Below, piece after piece: positions 35,287 through 53,302 of a DNA stretch of 64,000 nt. Position 1 is the first letter of the stretch, and every line of letters starts with the position of its first letter. The DNA is from Synechococcus sp. CBW1108. GTDB lineage: Bacteria > Cyanobacteriota > Cyanobacteriia > PCC-6307 > Cyanobiaceae. The translations under genes and the position numbers were made by a program. The stretch is from assembly GCF_015840335.1 (NCBI RefSeq), contig NZ_CP060395.1, positions 1,897,277 through 1,961,276 on the forward strand, written 5' to 3'. The notes under the pieces are model-generated. The model did no database searches. It saw only the letters and a list, made by a program, of their open reading frames with translations, and was not told the origin of the DNA.

Positions 35287-36462
35287 ATGGCCAAGGTAGG
35301 CGTGCTCTTGCTGAACCTCGGGGGTCCGGAGCGCATCCAGGACGTCGGCCCTTTTCTCTACAACCTGTTCTCGGATCCGGAAATCATCCGGCTACCCAAC
35401 CCGGCCCTGCAGAAACCACTGGCCTGGCTGATCAGTAGCCTGCGGGCGAGTAAGTCGCAGGATGCTTATCGCTCCATTGGGGGCGGCTCACCACTGCGGC
35501 GAATCACTGGGCAGCAGGCGCGGGAGTTGCAGAGTAGCCTCCGCCTGCTTGGGATCGAGGCCACCACCTACGTGGCAATGCGCTACTGGCACCCCTTCAC
35601 CGAATCGGCGGTGGCAGACATCAAAGCCGACGCCGTGGATGAGGTAGTGGTGCTGCCTCTTTACCCCCAATTCTCAATTAGCACCAGCGGCTCCAGCTTC
35701 AGGGAGCTTCAGCGTCTTCGCCAGTCTGATTCTGTTTTTGCAGCTTTGCCGATCCGATGCATCCGCAGCTATTATGATAACCGGGGTTACATCGGCGCCA
35801 TGGCCGGGCTGATAGCGCGCGAGATCCAGGCCTGCCCAGACCCTGCCAGCGCGCACGTGTTCTTCAGTGCCCACGGCGTGCCTAGGAGCTACGTGGAGGA
35901 AGCGGGAGATCCATACCAAGGGGAGATCGAGACCTGCGCCCGGCTGATCATCGAGAATCTGGAGGCCACATTGGGCCACAGCAACTCTTTCACCCTCGCG
36001 TACCAGAGCAGGGTGGGCCCTGTGGAGTGGCTTAAGCCCTACACCGACGAGGCATTGGAGGAGCTGGGACGGCAGGGTGTGAAGGATCTGGTAGTTGTGC
36101 CGATCAGTTTTGTGAGCGAACACATCGAGACCCTCGAAGAGATTGACATCGAGTACCGCAAGCTGGCTTTCGAGTCGGGCATCACTAATTTTCGCCGTGT
36201 TCCTGCGCTCGACACCAACCCTGCGTTCATCCAGGGGCTTGCGCGACTCGTTCAACATGCCCTGGAAGGGCCCGAAGTGAATCTTGACCAGGCGGCCGCT
36301 CTGCCCAGCACTGTCAAGCTATACCCCCAAGATAAGTGGTCTTGGGGCTGGAACAACAGCTCCGAAGTGTGGAATGGCCGCTTAGCTATGCTCGGACTCT
36401 CCGCTTTTCTAGTGGAGCTGATCAGGGGCAGTGGGCCTCTTCATGCCCTCGGCTTGCTGTGA
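35287..36462 (+). CDS. hemH: Ferrochelatase with C-terminal chlorophyll a/b-binding-like helix
   Basis: The 391-residue enzyme inserts Fe2+ into protoporphyrin IX. The catalytic His lies in [19 protein letters not shown] and the acidic [13 protein letters not shown] segment is present. After a linker, the C-terminus adds a membrane helix with the CAB motif ([18 protein letters not shown]), as in cyanobacterial and plastid type II ferrochelatases. That helix can bind pigment and tune activity. Its position next to pebAB links heme output to bilin supply. Confidence 0.96.
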
Positions 36463-36470
36463 TTTCCTTT

Positions 36471-37261
36471 TTACTCAGGGTAGTGTCTATCCAGATCAAA
36501 CAACACCTCATGGATATATGTTTCGGTCCATTCTGCGCCATGAAAGCGGCTGAGCATCCCTCTTGCCGGGTCTTTCTCTGCCCGGTAGCTGGTGTAGCGC
36601 CGTTGGCCATTGAGCAATATCGCTGAGCGATCATCTGCTACGGGAGCCGCTTCATGCACGAGTTGTAAATAAAGTTTTAAGTACTCAGCAAAGGCTTGAA
36701 ATATAACGGTGGCGATCAGCTCATCGGAGGCTGCTCCCAAAGGCAGGCGGGTCCAGAGAAATGCAGGCGAAAAGTAAGGTTCCGCCTCGGCAGGAATAGG
36801 CCCGCCATCGGGTAAGTGAGGTTTCCAGCTGTTAAAAATTGGGAGCAAGCGATCCCAGACAGGTTGGGTATGGAGGGAATCGCTGCGGTCGACTGGCTGC
36901 AGGTCAAGGGCTAGCAGATGGCCTGAGGGCAGCGTGACCAAATCGGCTCCGAAGAAAGGCAGATCAAAACGGCAGTGGGGATTGATAACTAGGTTCAGCA
37001 CGGACGCTGCTGGCCCCGCTTCCACGCAGGCGGCCCTCACCTGGCGAAGCTTGTTGGTTTGACAGGCCCAAGTTGCAGTTTGCACAACTACCGGCTGCGC
37101 CTTCGAACCTGTGGATCCGATTTTTTGCAGAAACTGCTCCGGCACGGGGTAGGCCGCTGGCTCCAACGCTTGAAGCAATTCGACTGCATGATCAAGAAAG
37201 GGCTGCCAACGCCAATTGGCGATTCTGACCTGATCAAGACTGCATCTTTGCGGTGCTGTCA

Positions 37262-37262
<1 letters not shown>
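36471..37262 (-). CDS. pebB: Phycoerythrobilin:ferredoxin oxidoreductase
   Basis: The 263-residue ferredoxin-dependent bilin reductase converts 15,16-dihydrobiliverdin to phycoerythrobilin. The sequence fits Peb[57 protein letters not shown] and the C-terminal [17 protein letters not shown]. The start overlaps the pebA stop by one base (TAATG), the usual pebAB coupling that favours substrate channelling. Confidence 0.95.
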
Positions 37263-38595
<1,333 letters not shown>

Positions 38596-38613: not shown

Positions 38614-38868
38614 TTAAATCTGTTCGGACTTCTGGGCCTCAAGCTGAGCCAGAATTGCTTCTATCTTTTGCAATTCGGGATGCTGAGCCAGGGTGAATTC
38701 CACTTGCTTCTGAGGAAGCTTCAGTCTCTGACCCATTCCGATTACGTCTTTGACAAGACGATCGCGGTAGGCCGCGAGCTGATCAATCGACTCCTCCAAC
38801 TCCTGGCGGCTGGGATCGGATGCGTTGATTGCAGACGTGTCGGCGCGAGCGGTGGTGCCGTCGGACAT
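38614..38868 (-). CDS. Small conserved protein of the phycobilisome region
   Basis: An ORF of about 84 residues starting MSDGTTARAD (or three codons earlier at 38877). The rest is a predicted helical, charged protein (SRQELEESIDQLAAYRDRLVKDVIGMGQRL, then KIEAILAQLEAQ), probably a short coiled coil. It is 18 bases upstream of the lyase gene on the same strand. I recall such small genes in picocyanobacterial phycobilisome clusters but know no function. Confidence 0.6.
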   Translation of the reverse strand: MSDGTTARADTSAINASDPSRQELEESIDQLAAYRDRLVKDVIGMGQRLKLPQKQVEFTLAQHPELQKIEAILAQLEAQKSEQI

Positions 38869-38877
38869 GGGTTGCAT

Positions 38878-39130
38878 AGCGCGAAGCTCAGCATACGGAG
38901 TCGACCGCTGCGATCCACCAAAACAGCTGCGCCGTTCACCAGGGCTGCTTGGTTGTGGCGGATCGCCCCCAGCAGGGCGGCCGGGTCGCATTGTTGCTGC
39001 AGCTTCTCGATGCGTTGGCGGCCCTTGCGGCCCATGCATCCCCCCCATCGCAGCAGCCGATCAGCTGGGATGAGCGGTTCGTCATCGCGGCTGGGGAGCG
39101 GGACACATTTGCTCCAACCATGGGCACTCT
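38878..39130 (-). pseudogene. Coding-like frame without a start, probably a truncated gene
   Basis: The minus-strand frame through 39130-38878 has protein-like composition (KCVPLPSRDDEPLIPADRLL, then RIEKLQQQCDPAALLGAI and NGAAVLVDRSGRLRML). The only ATG is internal at 39035, and the region upstream belongs to an eroded transposase. It may be a gene whose 5' end was lost when the element arrived, or it may start at 39035. Its end runs into the start of the next small gene. Confidence 0.4.
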
Positions 39131-39400: not shown

Positions 39401-40234
<834 letters not shown>

Positions 40235-40281: not shown

Positions 40282-40791
<510 letters not shown>

Positions 40792-41523: not shown

Positions 41524-42414
41524 TCACTTGCTCAGCTGACTGATTGCTAATTCCAGCACTAACCTGACACCAGGTTGTTCTTCCTGCTCCACACTTGCTT
41601 TTAAGGCAGGCAATGCATCCTTGGCCCCTAGCTTCATCAGCGATAGAGCAGCGTTTTTGCGGACCTGTTCTTCCGGGTCGGTGAGCAGCGGGAGCAGGCG
41701 CGGGCATGCCCATTCGGGCTCTTGCAGCTTGCCCATCAATGTTGCAGCTTCTGCCCTCACCTCGGAGTCCAGGTCATCCAGCGCGGTTAGAAGCAGCTGT
41801 CTCGCCTGGTCATCCTCCAAAGCCTGGATCTGCTCGCCGAGAGCTGCTATTGCTGCCGCTCTTACCCTGGCATCAGGTGAGCTGGCTGCTTGGCGAAGTG
41901 CCTCGGGAGCCCTGGCGCCGATAAAAGCGATCCCCCAGCTGGCCAGCCCTTGCTGCATGGCTGAGGCTTCTGGATGAACCAGCACTGAGAGGAGTGGCTC
42001 GAGAGCCTGGTCGCCGACTGCGGCCATCGCTCCGACAGCTGATCCCTGCACCACGGGATCCGAATCTGAGAGCAGGGTTTCGAGTAAAACGGGCAAGGCA
42101 GAGGGATCCGCAATCAGGGTCAGAGTTTTCGCTGCAGCGCGGCGAACGGTGACGTTGTCGTGAGACCGCAATGCACGGCAGAGTGTTGGCACTGCTGCTG
42201 AACCCACTGCTCCAAGGCTTTCGGCAAAGGTGAGCCGCATTAAGCCTCTGGTATCGCCGAGACCAGCAACCATGCGCTCAATTGCTGGGCTATCGGAGGC
42301 GGGAACTAGCCCCTGGCGAAGTTGGGAACGAAGCTCTGCAGCCAGAATGTTGGCTTCCTCCACGCTCAGTTGCTGGTTCCCAGATGCGGGGGCAGTGGAC
42401 AACTCGGTAGACAA
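41524..42414 (-). CDS. cpeF: Phycoerythrin beta-subunit lyase CpeF (MpeV-like)
   Basis: The 296-residue HEAT-repeat lyase matches CpeF/MpeV: AGLGDTRGLMRLTFAESLGAVG, VTVRRAAAKTLTLIADPSALP, DSDPVVQGSAVGAMAAVG and QGLASWGIAFIGA. In Fremyella, CpeF attaches the doubly linked bilin at Cys50/Cys61 of CpeB, both present here. The start is TTG at 42414, supported by GGAGG five bases upstream. It is convergent with cpeZ and divergent from the next gene. Confidence 0.82.
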   Translation of the reverse strand: MSTELSTAPASGNQQLSVEEANILAAELRSQLRQGLVPASDSPAIERMVAGLGDTRGLMRLTFAESLGAVGSAAVPTLCRALRSHDNVTVRRAAAKTLTLIADPSALPVLLETLLSDSDPVVQGSAVGAMAAVGDQALEPLLSVLVHPEASAMQQGLASWGIAFIGARAPEALRQAASSPDARVRAAAIAALGEQIQALEDDQARQLLLTALDDLDSEVRAEAATLMGKLQEPEWACPRLLPLLTDPEEQVRKNAALSLMKLGAKDALPALKASVEQEEQPGVRLVLELAISQLSK

Positions 42415-43306: not shown

Positions 43307-44692
43307 TTGAGCTCCGCAGCTTCGACTACCTTGACCTCTGAGGACAGTATTTTGGCCAGCTCCAGCAACAGTTATGACAATATTCATCCAGGCCTCAGCC
43401 ACCACGGTGCGCTCGCCATTCTTGAGCAATCTCTTGACTCTCTCGATTCTGCTAGCGATTACTACATGGCGGTCGCACATCTCGTAAATTTTCCTGGTAA
43501 TAAAACGGAGGAGGCTTTATTGAGGCTAATCGAGACTTCTTCGTCCGAACAGGCGGTCAATCTTGCGCGCCGCAAAGCGGTCGAAGTTTTGGGCCGGCTT
43601 GGGGTTCAACGGGCCATCCCCAGCATTGGGCGTTGCCTAAGGAGCAATGATCACTATCTCGTTGAAAATGCCGCCTGGGCCCTTCTTCAGCTCAATTGCC
43701 AGGATGTTGAACTCCATCAGGAGATGTGCCTGCTACTCAATGATCCAGCCCAGAGCCGCAGGGTTCTTATTCAGGCTCTTTCCGGGTTAGAAGTGCACAC
43801 GGCCTTGCCCGTGCTTCAATCGCTGCAAGATGAGGCGAATCCAGGGGTTCGAGGGGCTGCTTTAGCCGGGGTTGCACAGCTTAGTGGCGATAGTAGTCGC
43901 CTTAAAGAGTTGGAAGACCACCTGACCCTGCCGAACCAAATGGATCGGCAGTCGGCAATTCAGGATTTAATTGACTGTCGGGCTACGTATCTATTGCCCT
44001 CGATCCTCAAGGCGCCCGTGTCCCCTGTGTTCAGGTTGCGCGCTCTGCGGACACTCTGGCCGGGCCAAGACAAAGCACACGCAGGCCTCGACCTGCTTAC
44101 TTGTTTGGATTCGCTTATGTGGGATCAGCCAGAAGTTTTGGTCTTGGCGCACTGTTACGACACTGAACCCACCACGATATTTCTATTTGAGGAATTTTTT
44201 GGTACTGACTTTAGCCGTTGCTACCTAGCATTGTCCACATTGAAGCATAGGCCAGCAGAGGAGCTCTGGCCTACTTTCTGGAAGCGATGGCAGGAGGATG
44301 CTTATAATGATTATGGTGCACACTATTTCTTCATTCAGCTTCTTGGCAGTGTGGACCACTGGCCTTCCGCTGCCACCGCCACCATTGAGTCGCTTCTGCT
44401 GGAAGCCATGAACAGCAAGCGACCGCAATTCAGCAAGTCAAAAGTGGCTGCTTGTCTGACATTGAATAAACATTTTCCTGATATATGGTGTAAAAGTGTG
44501 CAGCAGTTTTTGTCTTCCGACCTCACAGCAAGCTGGGAGCTGCGTTATGCTGCATTGATGGGCCTTGGTTCAATTGATATTGGGAATAATCATGAAATAT
44601 TTTTGCTCTTAAAGAACTATTCATCCGTTCAGGATCCTGATCCTTTTGTAGATCGTAGACGTCAATTGCTAATTTCCGAAAACCGTGTCTGA
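43307..44692 (+). CDS. cpeY: Phycoerythrin alpha-subunit lyase CpeY (HEAT repeat)
   Basis: The protein of up to 461 residues is a long E/F-type lyase: AVAHLVNFPGNKTEEALLRLIE, NLARRKAVEVLGRLGVQRAIPSIG, HYLVENAAWALLQL. CpeY attaches phycoerythrobilin to Cys82 of CpeA with help from CpeZ. No ATG precedes residue 54. TTG codons at 43307 and 43352 are candidates; the latter has GAGGA seven bases upstream and is my preferred start (446 residues). Its 3' end overlaps the convergent cpeR by 31 bases. Confidence 0.85.
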   Translation: MSSAASTTLTSEDSILASSSNSYDNIHPGLSHHGALAILEQSLDSLDSASDYYMAVAHLVNFPGNKTEEALLRLIETSSSEQAVNLARRKAVEVLGRLGVQRAIPSIGRCLRSNDHYLVENAAWALLQLNCQDVELHQEMCLLLNDPAQSRRVLIQALSGLEVHTALPVLQSLQDEANPGVRGAALAGVAQLSGDSSRLKELEDHLTLPNQMDRQSAIQDLIDCRATYLLPSILKAPVSPVFRLRALRTLWPGQDKAHAGLDLLTCLDSLMWDQPEVLVLAHCYDTEPTTIFLFEEFFGTDFSRCYLALSTLKHRPAEELWPTFWKRWQEDAYNDYGAHYFFIQLLGSVDHWPSAATATIESLLLEAMNSKRPQFSKSKVAACLTLNKHFPDIWCKSVQQFLSSDLTASWELRYAALMGLGSIDIGNNHEIFLLLKNYSSVQDPDPFVDRRRQLLISENRV

Positions 44693-44976
44693 AAGGAACC
44701 ACGTTCAGCCCAGTAGCGTTGAATTTCCAGGCCTTTGGGCCTCGGTACAGCTGCTTCAGCTCTCAGGATCTTGAATGTCCGGCGAGGCCCCATGGGCCAG
44801 TTTCCAATTGCTCTTACGGATCGCATGTGCCCATCAAGCATGTTTAGGCAGGCTTCAAAACGCTCAAGCTGGCTATGGTCAATGGTTTCAAAAATAAAGT
44901 CTTGGCCCTGGCAAATTAGGTGCTGCGAGCGAATCCAGCTACGGAATTGCTGGATAGCTGGACTGTCAGCTTGCAT
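44662..44976 (-). CDS. cpeR: CpeR, activator of phycoerythrin gene expression
   Basis: The 104-residue protein matches CpeR: QQFRSWIRSQHLICQGQDFIFETIDHSQLERFEACL and a C-terminal EIQRYWAERGSFQTRF. In Fremyella, CpeR is encoded at the end of the cpeCDESTR operon and is needed for cpeBA and pebAB expression in green light. Here it is also last, 11 bases after cpeT. ATG 44976 follows the cpeT stop closely; the longer frame to 45021 would overlap cpeT. Confidence 0.88.
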   Translation of the reverse strand: MQADSPAIQQFRSWIRSQHLICQGQDFIFETIDHSQLERFEACLNMLDGHMRSVRAIGNWPMGPRRTFKILRAEAAVPRPKGLEIQRYWAERGSFQTRFSEISN

Positions 44977-44986
44977 GCTCTTTTGT

Positions 44987-45625
44987 CTATCCAATATGCG
45001 TAGGTTGACCCCCCTGATCATTCGTTATATTTCTCCACTCAGCTGCTACTTCATTTTCATAGCTAGCTATTCGTTTAAATCGAAGCGCTCCATGTTCGGA
45101 GCCCCATTGTAAAGCATCTGTGGCTGGATCAAAGCCCTGATCTCTACTAATCCAGTTTTCGTGATCAACTAATACCTCACTCACTAGATAGGTAGGCCGC
45201 CCATCGCGAGGTACTAGGCATTTTTGACCAGGCTCTACCAATCCGCTGAAGCAACCCGGTGTCGTTTCGTGGAAATGCATCGCACAACCACAGCGCTGTT
45301 TAAGGCGTTTAATATTAATGAGCTTGAGAAGTTCAGGCGTGAAGCCTGCTCCAGCTAATCGAATCGGTTCGTCGAATCCATAATTTTCAACAATTTGCAC
45401 CTTCTCAGTTGAGATCAGTCGATGTACGCCTTGCCTGTAGGGTCGCCAAGGGTCGTGCCCATAACTCTGCTCAGAGTAAAAGCCAGGGCCTTGAAATACT
45501 CCCCATGGCAGAGGGCGGAAATAGATGTTAATATGTGCAAAATTTACTGGGTCGTGTTGAGATTGAGCAGAATTGCTGTAATGGCCAGCCAGTATTTTTG
45601 CAAATCTCAGGGCATTGTTTGGCAC
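44987..45625 (-). CDS. cpeT: CpeT-type phycoerythrin lyase
   Basis: The 212-residue T-family lyase has the hallmarks LAGHYSNSAQS, INIYFRPLPW, GFYSEQSYGHDPWRPYRQ, GCFSGLVEPGQKCLV and YLVSEVLV. CpeT attaches bilin to the third CpeB site (Cys165-type, here Cys167). The only reasonable start is GTG 45625, 11 bases after the cpeS stop. Confidence 0.9.
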   Translation of the reverse strand: MPNNALRFAKILAGHYSNSAQSQHDPVNFAHINIYFRPLPWGVFQGPGFYSEQSYGHDPWRPYRQGVHRLISTEKVQIVENYGFDEPIRLAGAGFTPELLKLINIKRLKQRCGCAMHFHETTPGCFSGLVEPGQKCLVPRDGRPTYLVSEVLVDHENWISRDQGFDPATDALQWGSEHGALRFKRIASYENEVAAEWRNITNDQGGQPTHIG

Positions 45626-45636
45626 GGCGATTACTG

Positions 45637-46176
45637 TTAGCTGAAGGAATCTAATCGTCGGATTTCAGATGCGAAGGAGGTTTGCAGTATCCCTGAACCT
45701 GCTGAAGTTCGTAGCACTGACGAGCGGCAGCGTACATTCTCAGATACGAACCAGATCCTTTCCTCTGCAATGGATTGGCCGTATTGTGTACTTAGTATAA
45801 AAGTGTCATCTTCTAAAAATGTGTAGTTAGAGACTGCCTGCTCGGCTTCTGCGTATCCAACGCTTCGCAGCAAGATTCCCTTTCGATTATCAGTTGGTAT
45901 TGGAACGAGAATGCATGATCCTGCTGTTATTGCGCTGGGGTCATCTGGTTCCCAGTCGCTTTCGGCATTCCATTCCATTCTAAATGGATGAATAGGTTTT
46001 GCATCGCGTATTGTGCAATCCTTGAGCAGATTAAGAACCAATGGATCTTGGGGTTCAATTGACTCTATCAAGACTGAACTGCGAACATCCTCAAATTGCT
46101 GAAAAGCAAGAGAATGCCCACTTCGCATTGATCGCCAGCGGCCCAGGCTACGAGCTACAAAGGATTCCAGCTGCAT
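45637..46176 (-). CDS. cpeS: CpeS-type phycoerythrin lyase
   Basis: The 179-residue S-family lyase begins with the classic helix LESFVARSLGRWRSMRSGHSLAFQQFEDVRS and continues with GSCILVPIP, GILLRSVGYAEAEQ and ERIWFVSENVRCRSSVLRTSAGSG. CpeS attaches phycoerythrobilin at Cys82-type positions of CpeA/CpeB. It lies between cpeE and cpeT in the Fremyella-like order. Confidence 0.92.
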   Translation of the reverse strand: MQLESFVARSLGRWRSMRSGHSLAFQQFEDVRSSVLIESIEPQDPLVLNLLKDCTIRDAKPIHPFRMEWNAESDWEPDDPSAITAGSCILVPIPTDNRKGILLRSVGYAEAEQAVSNYTFLEDDTFILSTQYGQSIAEERIWFVSENVRCRSSVLRTSAGSGILQTSFASEIRRLDSFS

Positions 46177-49004: not shown

Positions 49005-49889
49005 TCAACTCAGGGGTGTGATGCTTGCGATCTTGCCACCCTCGCGGTGAATAAGTTGATACTGCTCTGATAGCTTGTTGAAGGGAACGAAGTATACTCT
49101 GTTAGATTTTCTATAGCGTGATGTGGGGCGCACATTGTTGGCTCTATAGCCTGTCACTTCAACTCGATAGACTTTGCCTGTTTCGCCTGCGAGTACACCT
49201 ATCCGTGTAACGGGATCTGTCAGGTTGGCGGCTGGGCGGAAGCTCCAGCCTTGGGAATCTTGTGATGAGGGAGCTACCACTGGAAGAGGGCGGTCCTGAT
49301 AAGCAGCACCGCCAAGACGGCTCCTGATTCCAGCTAGGTTGCCTTTTAAGCTGCTGCTGCTGTTTCCACGCAGCAACTGGAATGACCAGGTGAACTCTTG
49401 GAGCGTTGTACAGGATTCCGTTTTCCAACCACGCTGATATGGAACTGTCCACTCACCAAAGGTGTTCTGATATTCGTCAGAATCTAAGAAGCTGTCGATG
49501 TCTGCTTCGTAACCACTTGTATCTAGTCGTTCGGCATGGCCACGCATTTCCTCAAAGTCTGCTGGGGCACGGCCGAGTAGGTGGCGAAATGCTAGTTCGA
49601 TATAGCGGTAGCGCGCGCATGAGTCAAAAAAGCGGGTGCTGTATAGATCGCTTTTGGCGATGCGTCGTACCAGTTCTCTAACGCTGATCTCGCCAAGCTT
49701 GAATTGCGATTCTGCAACTACTTGTCTTTCGCTTTCCATTACGTAGGCATTCCCAAGCACCTGTCTATAAACTGCTCGGACTATTTCCTCTTTTGATTGG
49801 TCGTCGTCTCCCGGAACTAGCTCTCGTGGTGCCTCGCATTCTTGCGAGAAGCTTTCCACACCCAGGATGGAGGCGGGGCCAAAGGGCAT
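49005..49889 (-). CDS. cpeC: Phycoerythrin-associated rod linker CpeC
   Basis: The 294-residue linker starts with the conserved MPFGPAS (ATG 49889; an upstream TTG at 49913 is possible). The linker domain runs from EIVRAVYRQVLGNAYVMESER to YQNTFGEWTVPYQRGW, followed by the CpeC-like FQLLRGNSSSSLKG segment and a CpcD domain (SNRVYFVPFNKLSEQYQLIHREGGKIASITPLS). It heads the linker-lyase run. Confidence 0.9.
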   Translation of the reverse strand: MPFGPASILGVESFSQECEAPRELVPGDDDQSKEEIVRAVYRQVLGNAYVMESERQVVAESQFKLGEISVRELVRRIAKSDLYSTRFFDSCARYRYIELAFRHLLGRAPADFEEMRGHAERLDTSGYEADIDSFLDSDEYQNTFGEWTVPYQRGWKTESCTTLQEFTWSFQLLRGNSSSSLKGNLAGIRSRLGGAAYQDRPLPVVAPSSQDSQGWSFRPAANLTDPVTRIGVLAGETGKVYRVEVTGYRANNVRPTSRYRKSNRVYFVPFNKLSEQYQLIHREGGKIASITPLS

Positions 49890-50005
49890 GACTGAAACTG
49901 CAATACTCCCCAATTATCCCTGTCTTTTATTTCCCTTTCCCGGCAGCTTGACAAAGCTCAATCTTTTGTTTCAATGGCTATGCTTTTTCTGCCAGTGCCA
50001 GCGCG

Positions 50006-50737
50006 CTAACCGGGCTGCATTGTCGATTCCAGCAGCGATTCCAGTGTCGCCCGGGTCGCTTGCCTAGTGAGTGGGTTCCAGCAATCCAGTTCGATGTGCG
50101 AGCGAGTTAGTAGATTTGCTAGCTGTAACTTGTCCATACCCGTAGCCTGCCTGAAGTCAGCGCCCTGAATACTTTCCGACCCTTCCAGGATTGCCTCTGT
50201 TAAATCAGCAGCCCTAAAGTCTGCCTGCTGCAACTGACTGCCGGTAAAGCGTGTGCCCACGCAGCGACAGCCTTGCATCCTCGCAAACCTTAAGTCGGCA
50301 CCTACAAAACGTGCTCCGTCCAATACTGCACCACTTAGGTCACACCCGCTTAGGTAGGCACCCATAAAGTTGGTGTTTCGAAGGTCCATTCCCCGGAGAT
50401 CTGCACCATTTAAAAAAGCCCCATTAAGGGCTGCTCCTGGACCCACTGCTCCTGACTTTTCCAGATTAAAACCAACGGGTACGCGAGTCTTTTTATCATA
50501 ACGGGCAAGTGTTAAATTGCATCCTTCTAGTTGGCAGGCAGTTAGGTCTGTGCCTCTTATGTCCGTACGACAAAGGTTTGCATCCCGTAGATCAAGTGGC
50601 TGGAGAATAAGGTTGACCCAATTGGCCCCTCGCGCGTCTATGGGTTGATGCTGTGATGAAACAGGTTTGCAATCTTCAGGAGCCCTCCATTGGCTGGGGT
50701 CTTCGGGTAACAAGCAGGCTTGGTGCTTATGATTCAT
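50006..50737 (-). CDS. Pentapeptide-repeat protein of the phycobilisome region
   Basis: The 243-residue protein is built of A(D/N)Lxx-type repeats (LDLRDANLCRTDIRGTDL, NGADLRGMDLRNTNFMGAYLSG and further copies), predicted to form a right-handed quadrilateral beta-helix. A non-repeat insert (LARYDKKTRVPVGF) interrupts it. It sits 117 bases upstream of cpeC and 84 bases after an orphan phycobiliprotein-like gene. A scaffold or docking role is inferred from position only. Confidence 0.8.
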   Translation of the reverse strand: MNHKHQACLLPEDPSQWRAPEDCKPVSSQHQPIDARGANWVNLILQPLDLRDANLCRTDIRGTDLTACQLEGCNLTLARYDKKTRVPVGFNLEKSGAVGPGAALNGAFLNGADLRGMDLRNTNFMGAYLSGCDLSGAVLDGARFVGADLRFARMQGCRCVGTRFTGSQLQQADFRAADLTEAILEGSESIQGADFRQATGMDKLQLANLLTRSHIELDCWNPLTRQATRATLESLLESTMQPG

Positions 50738-50821: not shown

Positions 50822-51430
50822 TCAGCTTTCTGGCATCAGTGAATCGCTTGATTTTAGGGCGTTGATTAGGTTATCGAAGGCCCTGTTTAGGCAGTCTATC
50901 TCGCGAAGATGGCCAGAAGCTTCAAGGATAAGTGTAGTCAGTTTACGCATTTGGGCTAAAGCGTACATCATCGCTGGAACTGGTACTTTCATTTCTTTGT
51001 ATAATAACCGCAATGCAGCCATTCCGGTCGTGTCTGTTATCTCTGCGCAATCGCATGCCACTCCGTAGATGACTATTCGTAGAAACTGTTGGCAATCTCG
51101 CCAGCAGGCCTCTGCTCTTTTCTCCGGGTATAGCTCTCCGCCTGGCAGTATCACATTAGGTTGTTGGTCTAGTAATTTTCGCCTTGCCGCATCAGTTACA
51201 TTGTTTGTCTCAGTAATCAGTAGGCTTACGGCATGTTCTGAGGTATTGCAACACACGCATACCTTTTTCAATTCATCGACCTTTAGAGGCTGTTTTGAGG
51301 TGTCCGCATTTGCTATCAACTCTCTCACTTCAACGGGGAGGCTGTTGCGCTTTGTTATGCCGCATACTTGTGCTGCCTTGGCAAGTTCGCTTATTCTTAG
51401 TTGTCGCTGAGCTTCTATAGTCAGGTTCAC
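50822..51430 (-). CDS. Orphan phycobiliprotein-like protein
   Basis: The 202-residue protein has a C-terminal half similar to the phycobiliprotein globin fold: EKRAEACWRDCQQFLRIVIYG matches the C82-R-D bilin loop region (Cys109, Arg111, Asp112 here), followed by ITDTTGMAALRLLYKEMKVPVPAMMYALAQMRKL like the G-H region. The N-terminal half is divergent and has a CVCC cluster at 58-61. No second bilin site is evident. The GTG start overlaps the preceding stop (GTGA). It could be a minor rod subunit, bilin carrier or assembly factor. Confidence 0.7.
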   Translation of the reverse strand: MNLTIEAQRQLRISELAKAAQVCGITKRNSLPVEVRELIANADTSKQPLKVDELKKVCVCCNTSEHAVSLLITETNNVTDAARRKLLDQQPNVILPGGELYPEKRAEACWRDCQQFLRIVIYGVACDCAEITDTTGMAALRLLYKEMKVPVPAMMYALAQMRKLTTLILEASGHLREIDCLNRAFDNLINALKSSDSLMPES

Positions 51431-52041: not shown

Positions 52042-52530
52042 TCAAACAAGCGCGTTGATTGCGTAGTCGAGATAATTGTTTGCTTCTGTCGCTGCTTCGC
52101 CGGCAAGGCCATGGTTTGCCTTGATATAGTTAAGAGCTTCCACGTACCAAGAGGGGGAGAGCTCAAAAGCGCGATTGATTTCATCAATTCCGGCAATCAG
52201 GTACTCATCCATGGGGCCGGTCCCACCAGCTACGAGGCAGTAGGTGACCATGCGGAGGTAGTAACCGATGTCGCGGGAGCACTTTGCCTTGCCGCGGGCA
52301 TCAGCGGCATAGTTTGCACCCTGCATCTGGGTGGTGTAAGGGAATTTATTGTAAACGGCTTGGGCGGCTCCGTTTACTAGGTTGTCTGCGTTCGCTGTCA
52401 GGCCCTTAGCCGCTGCAAGAGAATTTTTGGCGCGGTTAAAGCGACCAAAAGCAGAGTTGATCTCAGTATTGGAGAGGAAGCGACCCTGGGAATCAGCGGT
52501 GGCGACGGCTTCGGTAAGGGGAGTCTTCAT
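52042..52530 (-). CDS. cpcA: Phycocyanin alpha subunit
   Basis: The 162-residue subunit starts [20 protein letters not shown] and carries the bilin Cys84 in [12 protein letters not shown]. It forms the rod hexamers nearest the core together with CpcB. CpcE/CpcF encoded at 30.8-32.2 kb are its likely lyases. It follows cpcB by 42 bases and is closed by a terminator. Confidence 0.97.
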
Positions 52531-52572: not shown

Positions 52573-53091
52573 TCAGCCGACGGCTGCTGCAGCGCGGTCG
52601 AAGTAGGTGCCGATTTCGCTGATTAAAGCTGAGCAGTCCCCTTGGGTGATGCCGTTGCGGTCGTTGGCAATTGCAATGGCGGCGGCCTTCATTTTGCGAA
52701 CGCCTTCAGCAACGGAAGCGCCAGGCACGCCGAGGGCCAGGTAGGTTTCCCGAAGGCCGTTGAGGCAGCGATCCTCCAGTACGGATGCATCTCCGTTGAA
52801 AACGGCGTAGGTGATGTAACGGAGAATGATGTCCATGTCCCGCAGGCATGCAGCCATGCGGCGGCTGGTGTAGGCGTTCCCTCCAGGAGCTGTAAGCGCC
52901 GGCTGAGCCTCAAAAAGATCACGCGCCGCATTGGTAACGATCTTTGAAGCGTTTGAGGTGATGCGGTTCACAGCATCCATACGCTTGTTGCTCTCGGCAA
53001 CCATCGCGGCAAGCGCGTCGATCTGACCGGCGTTGATGAATTCGCCACGGGCGTCGGCCTGGGCTACAACCTTGGTGAAGGCGTCGAACAT
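52573..53091 (-). CDS. cpcB: Phycocyanin beta subunit
   Basis: The 172-residue subunit starts [18 protein letters not shown] (ATG 53091, preceded by AGGAG) and carries Cys82 (AACLRDMD) and Cys153 ([10 protein letters not shown]), plus the conserved Asn-rich NRITSNASK region. The longer frame to 53250 is not typical of the family. It is the first gene of the cpcBA operon. Confidence 0.97.
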
Positions 53092-53302
53092 TGGGAAGCT
53101 CCTAGTCGCGACGAAGAGTCGGCAGGGTGGATAAGTTGCCAGGCTGGCCAGGGCACAGGAGCTACGCATTGCCCCATGTGGGCAGGGCGCAGCTAGCTGG
53201 CTGTTGTCAACTTGGTGCAACCATTGTCGGCAAGAAGCCAGCCCAGCCACGATCCGCGTAACAAACAGTCACCGCTAGCGTCGCTCCTGAGGCGTCCATC
53301 AA

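Follow-up and report, generated by a model that had tools for sequence, protein, structure and literature searches.

An AplA-type biliprotein gene in the pigment gene cluster of Synechococcus sp. CBW1108 and the association of AplA with phycoerythrin across cyanobacteria

Here I consider a short gene that lies among the pigment genes of Synechococcus sp. CBW1108, in a window of 64,000 nucleotides (the whole stretch of DNA that was analysed, to which all positions refer). Its frame runs without internal stops and, to judge from the sequence, it is aplA, a freshwater picocyanobacterial member of the AplA family. On the minus strand the order of genes is cpcB-cpcA-unk4-aplA-unk5, and the features discussed below are collected in Table 1. 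The stop codon of unk4 and the GTG start of aplA overlap by 4 nt (GTGA, 51427-51430), which suggests translational coupling, and GTG occupies the same start codon in the five nearest relatives within the genus. Curated models supply the names of CpcA and CpeA, while the other six antenna names are my own and agree with the clades of those proteins; the cpcB frame begins upstream of its PF00502 domain, and the two stops in the pebA match region are simply that frame's own end. A DUF2656 protein (PF10847; 42488-42916, plus strand) also lies in the phycoerythrin cluster, and a small protein follows cpeT (44662-45021, minus strand) that has no match in Pfam or NCBIfam and that aligns over 95 residues, at 41% identity, with a protein of 102 aa encoded at a Microcoleus locus; it is presumably CpeR.

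Table 1. Positions of aplA, its parts and the neighbouring pigment genes in the window
Feature	Coordinates	Strand	Basis or remark
aplA, allophycocyanin-like biliprotein, 202 aa, GTG start	50822..51430	(-)	PF00502, AplA clade, published gene order
Expected bilin attachment loop, Cys109-Trp110-Arg111-Asp112	51095..51106	(-)	CWRD in 61/62 and C-x-R-D in 62/62 AplAs
CVCC cluster, Cys58, 60 and 61	51248..51259	(-)	lineage-limited
N-terminal extension, residues 1-35, predicted helix 5-19	51326..51430	(-)	no counterpart in ApcA; AlphaFold2
unk4, 138 aa	51427..51843	(-)	no Pfam match; in 21/79 aplA loci; published unk4-aplA order
unk5, pentapeptide-repeat protein	50006..50737	(-)	PF00805; best-hit label in 36/79 aplA loci
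cpcA, phycocyanin alpha	52042..52530	(-)	TIGR01338 above cut-off
cpcB, phycocyanin beta (name assigned by the author)	52573..53250	(-)	PF00502 at residues 60-223; groups with CpcB rows
Phycobilisome linker with CpcD domain	49005..49913	(-)	PF00427, PF01383
CpeS-type lyase family protein	45637..46176	(-)	PF09367
CpeT-type lyase family protein	44987..45625	(-)	PF06206
CpeY-like HEAT-repeat protein	43307..44692	(+)	NF058505 at 319 bits, under its cut-off of 600
HEAT-repeat protein, probably CpeZ-like	41524..42414	(-)	PF13646, PF03130
cpeA, phycoerythrin alpha	40297..40791	(+)	NF058506 above cut-off (G000)
cpeB, phycoerythrin beta (name assigned by the author)	39674..40234	(+)	PF00502; groups with CpeB rows
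pebA, bilin reductase of phycoerythrobilin synthesis	37262..38107	(-)	NF009720 above cut-off (G000), PF05996
Bilin reductase, probably pebB-like	36471..37262	(-)	PF05996
Ferrochelatase gene, adjoining pebB	35287-36462	(+)	

Such an arrangement has been described before. In the available text of PMC6363710 the Type IIB pigment cluster of freshwater and brackish waters reads cpcBA-unk4-aplA-unk5, and by its sequence context the window gene sits at this published Type IIB place, after cpcBA and unk4; the same excerpted description includes cpeT and leaves out cpeS and cpeR, whereas the window adds CpeS-type and CpeR-like genes and so, on that text, is an inexact copy. Synechococcus sp. 1G10, listed there as Type IIB, has an AplA homologue (36% identity over 155 residues) between unk4 and unk5, with a linker gene separating cpcA from unk4. 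Larsson et al. 2014, as excerpted (PMC4139726), point to cpcA followed by unk4 as a unique order and to hemH immediately after pebAB, and AplA is listed among cluster genes in the figure legends of PMC5478717 and PMC6776005. For marine Synechococcus with phycoerythrin-II, the passages of Six et al. 2007 drawn on here (PMC2246261) put unk4 upstream of aplA and aplA upstream of cpcGII, which unk5, a pentapeptide gene, generally follows, and they present AplA as a photosensor or photoreceptor of unknown function that is unlinked to the phycobilisome, a view to which the original prediction, in naming bilin sensing as one option, came close. Unk10 was also considered as the published name of the window gene and was rejected, being a Nif11-domain protein of 107-118 aa.

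The domain of the window protein is complete: PF00502 matches at E = 1.8e-29 (103.2 bits against a cut-off of 22.2), its positions 2-155 of 155 corresponding to residues 38-192, and the earlier view, in which the N-terminal half did not resemble phycobiliproteins, was thus mistaken, just the first ~35 residues being extra. Residue 36 aligns to residue 5 of ApcA, so that the extension amounts to ~31 residues relative to that subunit. The organism's own genome (3.2 Mb, one contig) yields 11 PF00502 matches, namely eight antenna subunits, AplA, and two pieces of one long protein that I take to be ApcE. Although the top NCBIfam match of the window protein is ApcA, and its top PDB sequence matches are allophycocyanins, the equivalog scores for ApcA (66.4 bits, cut-off 270) and ApcB (53.7 bits, cut-off 228) both fall short, and those for CpcA/B and CpeA/B lie far below their curated cut-offs. 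A profile made from AplAs instead gives 238 bits for the window protein and 276 bits for a Nostoc protein (both are rows of that profile), against at most 106 bits for canonical subunits. The Cys-x-Arg-Asp site is shared with ApcA and ApcD (25% and 28% identity), yet the window protein differs from ApcA in its N-terminal extension and separate clade; CpcA/B and CpeA/B share with it the fold and Asp43, Cys109, Arg111, Asp112, Arg118 and Tyr122 at an identity of 22-24%. Neither is it the orphan that it had been called, since it belongs to a named family and 254 of the 272 matches to a sequence pattern in GTDB genomes (a pattern that requires CWRD) code for a relative. The nearest relative is 90% identical, the homologue of Cyanobium usitatum Tous 67%, and AplAs from outside the window's family 26-35%, and a profile search of 242 genomes places AplA in many cyanobacterial families. 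A viral or phage origin was rejected, with two matches to the same CWRD-demanding pattern in viral_contigs and none coding for a relative; among 50,697 phage records there were no matches to AplA.

AplA has also been studied at the bench. Montgomery et al., in 2004, reportedly found that Fremyella AplA binds its chromophore covalently and is absent from phycobilisomes, and are said to have described a 28-residue N-terminal extension relative to allophycocyanin, retention of the bilin-site residues and substitutions of the family at alpha-beta contact positions. A tie between the window protein and this experimentally studied protein would run through the name that the literature gives this locus and through anatomy: the AplA family and the window protein share an allophycocyanin-like domain with an N-terminal extension, the bilin-site residues, and the position between cpcBA/unk4 and unk5. 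In alignment with antenna subunits the window protein keeps Asp43, Arg118 and Tyr122, which I take to be the places of Asp13, Arg93 and Tyr97. The window clade departs from AplAs elsewhere in being rich in cysteine, with nine here (residues 23, 58, 60, 61, 109, 113, 126, 128 and 180 of 202; p ~9e-4 when set against the cysteine rate of 20 window genes, a post hoc comparison) and 7-10 per row in the five nearest rows of an alignment built from AplA loci (A2), compared with 2-3 in 26 of the 28 A2 rows from outside picocyanobacteria and sponge symbionts. The CVCC cluster is where the original prediction put it and looks like a lineage detail, Cys60 occurring in four and Cys61 in eight of 17 rows (the window counted) that were found without a motif filter.

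AlphaFold2, run with a 47-sequence alignment, gives the window protein a confidently predicted phycobiliprotein fold (pLDDT 94.4, pTM 0.90) with no loss of the globin core, which the original prediction had named as grounds for refutation. All but one of the 50 PDB entries listed (Z 14.9-15.9) are of phycobiliproteins or their derivatives, the exception being titled just 'Bacterial fluorescent protein', and residues 61-195 of the model fit onto a far-red biliprotein whose parent is an ApcF subunit, at 1.9 A for 134 residues. Whole-chain Foldseek TM by query is modest (0.51-0.61 among the 50 matches listed), as would be expected if the N-terminal helices are placed differently. In the tree, a branch with support of 100/100 separates 31 AplAs from 32 antenna rows of eight subunit types (ApcA, ApcB, ApcD, ApcF, CpcA, CpcB, CpeA and CpeB); a second tree was made without 18 long-branch rows, mostly picocyanobacterial AplAs. 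The best trees set AplA outside the allophycocyanin clades, at the junction of alpha and beta. The idea that AplA is an ancient branch preceding the alpha/beta split was dropped, because trees joining AplA to ApcA/D (p-AU 0.37) or to ApcB/F (p-AU 0.13) were not rejected.

Cys109-Trp-Arg-Asp is likewise present where it had been reported, and its conservation could be followed in two samples. At E <= 1e-20, 17 of 60 genomes match (the window's own counted), and in their 17-row alignment Cys109, Trp110 and Asp112 are invariant, with Arg111 changed to His in one row (L013), so the loss of Cys-Arg-Asp in close homologues that would have told against a bilin was not seen beyond that one substitution. 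In the wider sample, a profile derived from A2 and applied with a limit of E <= 1e-45, which would miss strongly diverged copies, finds AplA in 62 of 242 genomes of the class (each at least 95% complete); CWRD stands in 61 of them and CLRD in one (G096), giving Cys-x-Arg-Asp in 62 of 62 with no motif required by the search. The CWRD count in A2 itself (47/47) is set aside as evidence because the scan behind those loci demanded CWRD; 33 of the 79 loci were left out of A2 against redundancy and one of 80 (L090) was dropped for having no usable start. Tryptophan in place of the leucine of the bilin loop is therefore present as claimed, but as a mark of the AplA family in these alignments rather than a peculiarity of this protein. 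The suggestion that the protein may bind a bilin is well supported by this conservation together with the predicted fold.

AplA tracks phycoerythrin in the 242 cyanobacterial genomes. CpeA is present in 70 of them; 57 genomes have both proteins, five AplA alone, 13 CpeA alone and 167 neither, so that CpeA accompanies 57 of 62 AplAs and occurs in 13 of the 180 other genomes (Fisher p = 1.5e-36, which is overstated because kinship is uncorrected). AplA and CpeA lie on one contig in 39 genomes, at most 30 kb apart in 34 of these and 47 kb-2.4 Mb apart in the other five. Seven of the 13 genomes with CpeA alone are members of the window's family with lower CpeA scores (255-270 bits) and are probably Prochlorococcus. 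As for the five genomes with AplA and without CpeA, G038 has PebA, and G046, G068, G096 and G144 have no PebA at the thresholds used; aplA is close to a gene of the CpeT/CpcT family in G046 and G068 and to CpeS- and CpeT-family genes in G144, and in G096 no other cluster gene was found within 8 kb of it.

The neighbourhood of aplA was compared at 79 loci (80 fetched, one dropped), which are non-independent samples with flanks of at most 6 kb that are often cut by contig ends. At least one best match to 26 cluster-gene queries occurs at 74 of the 79, a count to be read knowing that six of the queries originate in these loci and that L077 is counted solely through its self-match. The best-hit labels were linkers (44 loci), a HEAT-repeat protein (37), unk5-like (36), CpeS (25), CpeZ-like (24), unk4 and CpeT (21 each), PebA (20) and PebB (19). 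An 80-aa protein with no Pfam match (L092:4223-4465, plus strand) is encoded directly before aplA at several loci and beside cpeZ-like genes elsewhere; by eye, it may correspond to a small ORF of the window at 38614-39048.

The HEAT-repeat protein (~220 aa, e.g. L064:6746-7426, minus strand) is divergent from aplA at 25 of its 37 loci and convergent at 12. At 270 bits or more it occurs in 43 of the 242 genomes, 40 of which have AplA, counts that are biased towards the positive because the profile was made from chosen aplA neighbours and the sampled genomes may overlap. Of the 49 AplA genomes outside the window's family, 40 have it at 270 bits and 33 have it no more than 2.5 kb from aplA, whereas in the window's family none of 13 AplA genomes has it at E <= 1e-62, and the window's genome holds no such gene (best match 100.6 bits). 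Lowering the limit to 225 bits adds company of another kind, with the HEAT-repeat protein found without AplA in 16 genomes; around the HEAT gene of three genomes that have this protein and no AplA, no aplA remnant was found within ~6 kb. That it is AplA's own partner was borne out just in part, since it follows CpeA more closely than AplA: CpeA is present in 42 of the 43 genomes that have it, and outside the window's family it occurs in two of the five genomes with CpeA and no AplA and in none of the five with AplA and no CpeA. From these counts the HEAT protein may serve phycoerythrin rather than AplA. On the NblB model one member reaches 86 bits where 300 are required, and on CpcE 17 where 330 are required, so none of the NCBIfam models that it matches claims it. 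Its score on the 'PBS lyase HEAT-like repeat' model (19.6 bits) is just below the cut-off of 20.9, weaker paralogues (~68-140 bits) are present in genomes without AplA, and the cyanobacterial HEAT protein IaiH acts on iron-sulfur clusters, to go by a paper's title; taken together, these make 'lyase' a guess for the HEAT protein.

How might these observations fit together? I consider it probable that AplA is a non-antenna biliprotein, carrying one bilin on Cys109 and acting as a sensor of light or of bilin supply around phycoerythrin production. Within the phycoerythrin/phycocyanin gene cluster aplA and unk4 are probably co-translated, the lyases of the same cluster would load the bilin, a thioether at Cys109 would attach it, and Arg111 and Asp112 would hold it as they do in antenna subunits. 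The soluble protein, outside the phycobilisome, could then sense light or bilin supply and control or support phycoerythrin production.

A more elaborate version, which I regard as unlikely though worth stating, casts AplA as one of two halves, the biliprotein, of a conserved module for monitoring phycoerythrin or the supply of bilin, together with a HEAT loader and, in freshwater picocyanobacteria, a tuning by thiols. Outside picocyanobacteria the lyase-like HEAT protein, usually head to head with aplA, would load the bilin of AplA, and both proteins would follow phycoerythrin across the phylum; the freshwater picocyanobacterial branch, lacking the HEAT protein, would have gained thiol or redox tuning through Cys113, which lies a helical turn away from the bilin cysteine, and through Cys58, 61, 126 and 128. 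The tracking of CpeA by the HEAT protein lowers the odds of such a module. Also unlikely is a role for AplA as bilin carrier or assembly factor, holding phycoerythrobilin or another bilin for a time and passing it to phycoerythrin subunits or lyases with no sensing of light. The genomic tie to CpeA, PebA at 20 and CpeS/T/Y/Z-type genes at 16-25 of the 79 loci, and the reported absence of AplA from phycobilisomes would suit a carrier, but Cys-x-Arg-Asp in every one of the 62 AplAs is as for a permanently bound bilin, and four AplA genomes have neither CpeA nor PebA.

I think it improbable that AplA is a minor structural subunit of rod or core, either capping it or acting as a terminal emitter. 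The full phycobiliprotein fold is predicted, aplA is placed among linker genes, and with Asp43, Arg118 and Tyr122 kept the loss of alpha-beta contacts that one would expect does not show clearly; against this stand the N-terminal extension of ~31 residues, the clade outside all antenna subunits tested and the report, in the excerpts of PMC2246261, that the family is unlinked to the phycobilisome. Rod capping, which the original prediction had offered, is thus unsupported in a family described as absent from phycobilisomes. That AplA is a functionless, decaying duplicate of an antenna subunit is very hard to credit: AplA does diverge faster from its nearest relative (90% identity) than CpcA, unk5 and CpeS do (97-98%), as does unk4 (also 90%), but a dN/dS of 0.38 (CpcA 0.17, unk4 0.17, unk5 0.31, CpeS 0.13) indicates purifying selection on the window gene against that relative, and the frames open in relatives, the invariant bilin site and the occurrence in many cyanobacterial families all point the same way.

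The window protein is, then, an ordinary member of an already known kind. AplA has been known for two decades, its published label is that of a photoreceptor of unknown function, and both its phylum-wide association with CpeA and its HEAT neighbour go beyond the open-licence literature on AplA in PMC, in the parts available here, where neither is reported (Montgomery et al. 2004 may have it). The link to phycoerythrin raises the question of whether AplA has an effect on phycoerythrin production, and the HEAT neighbour that of whether this protein is a lyase for AplA or for phycoerythrin.
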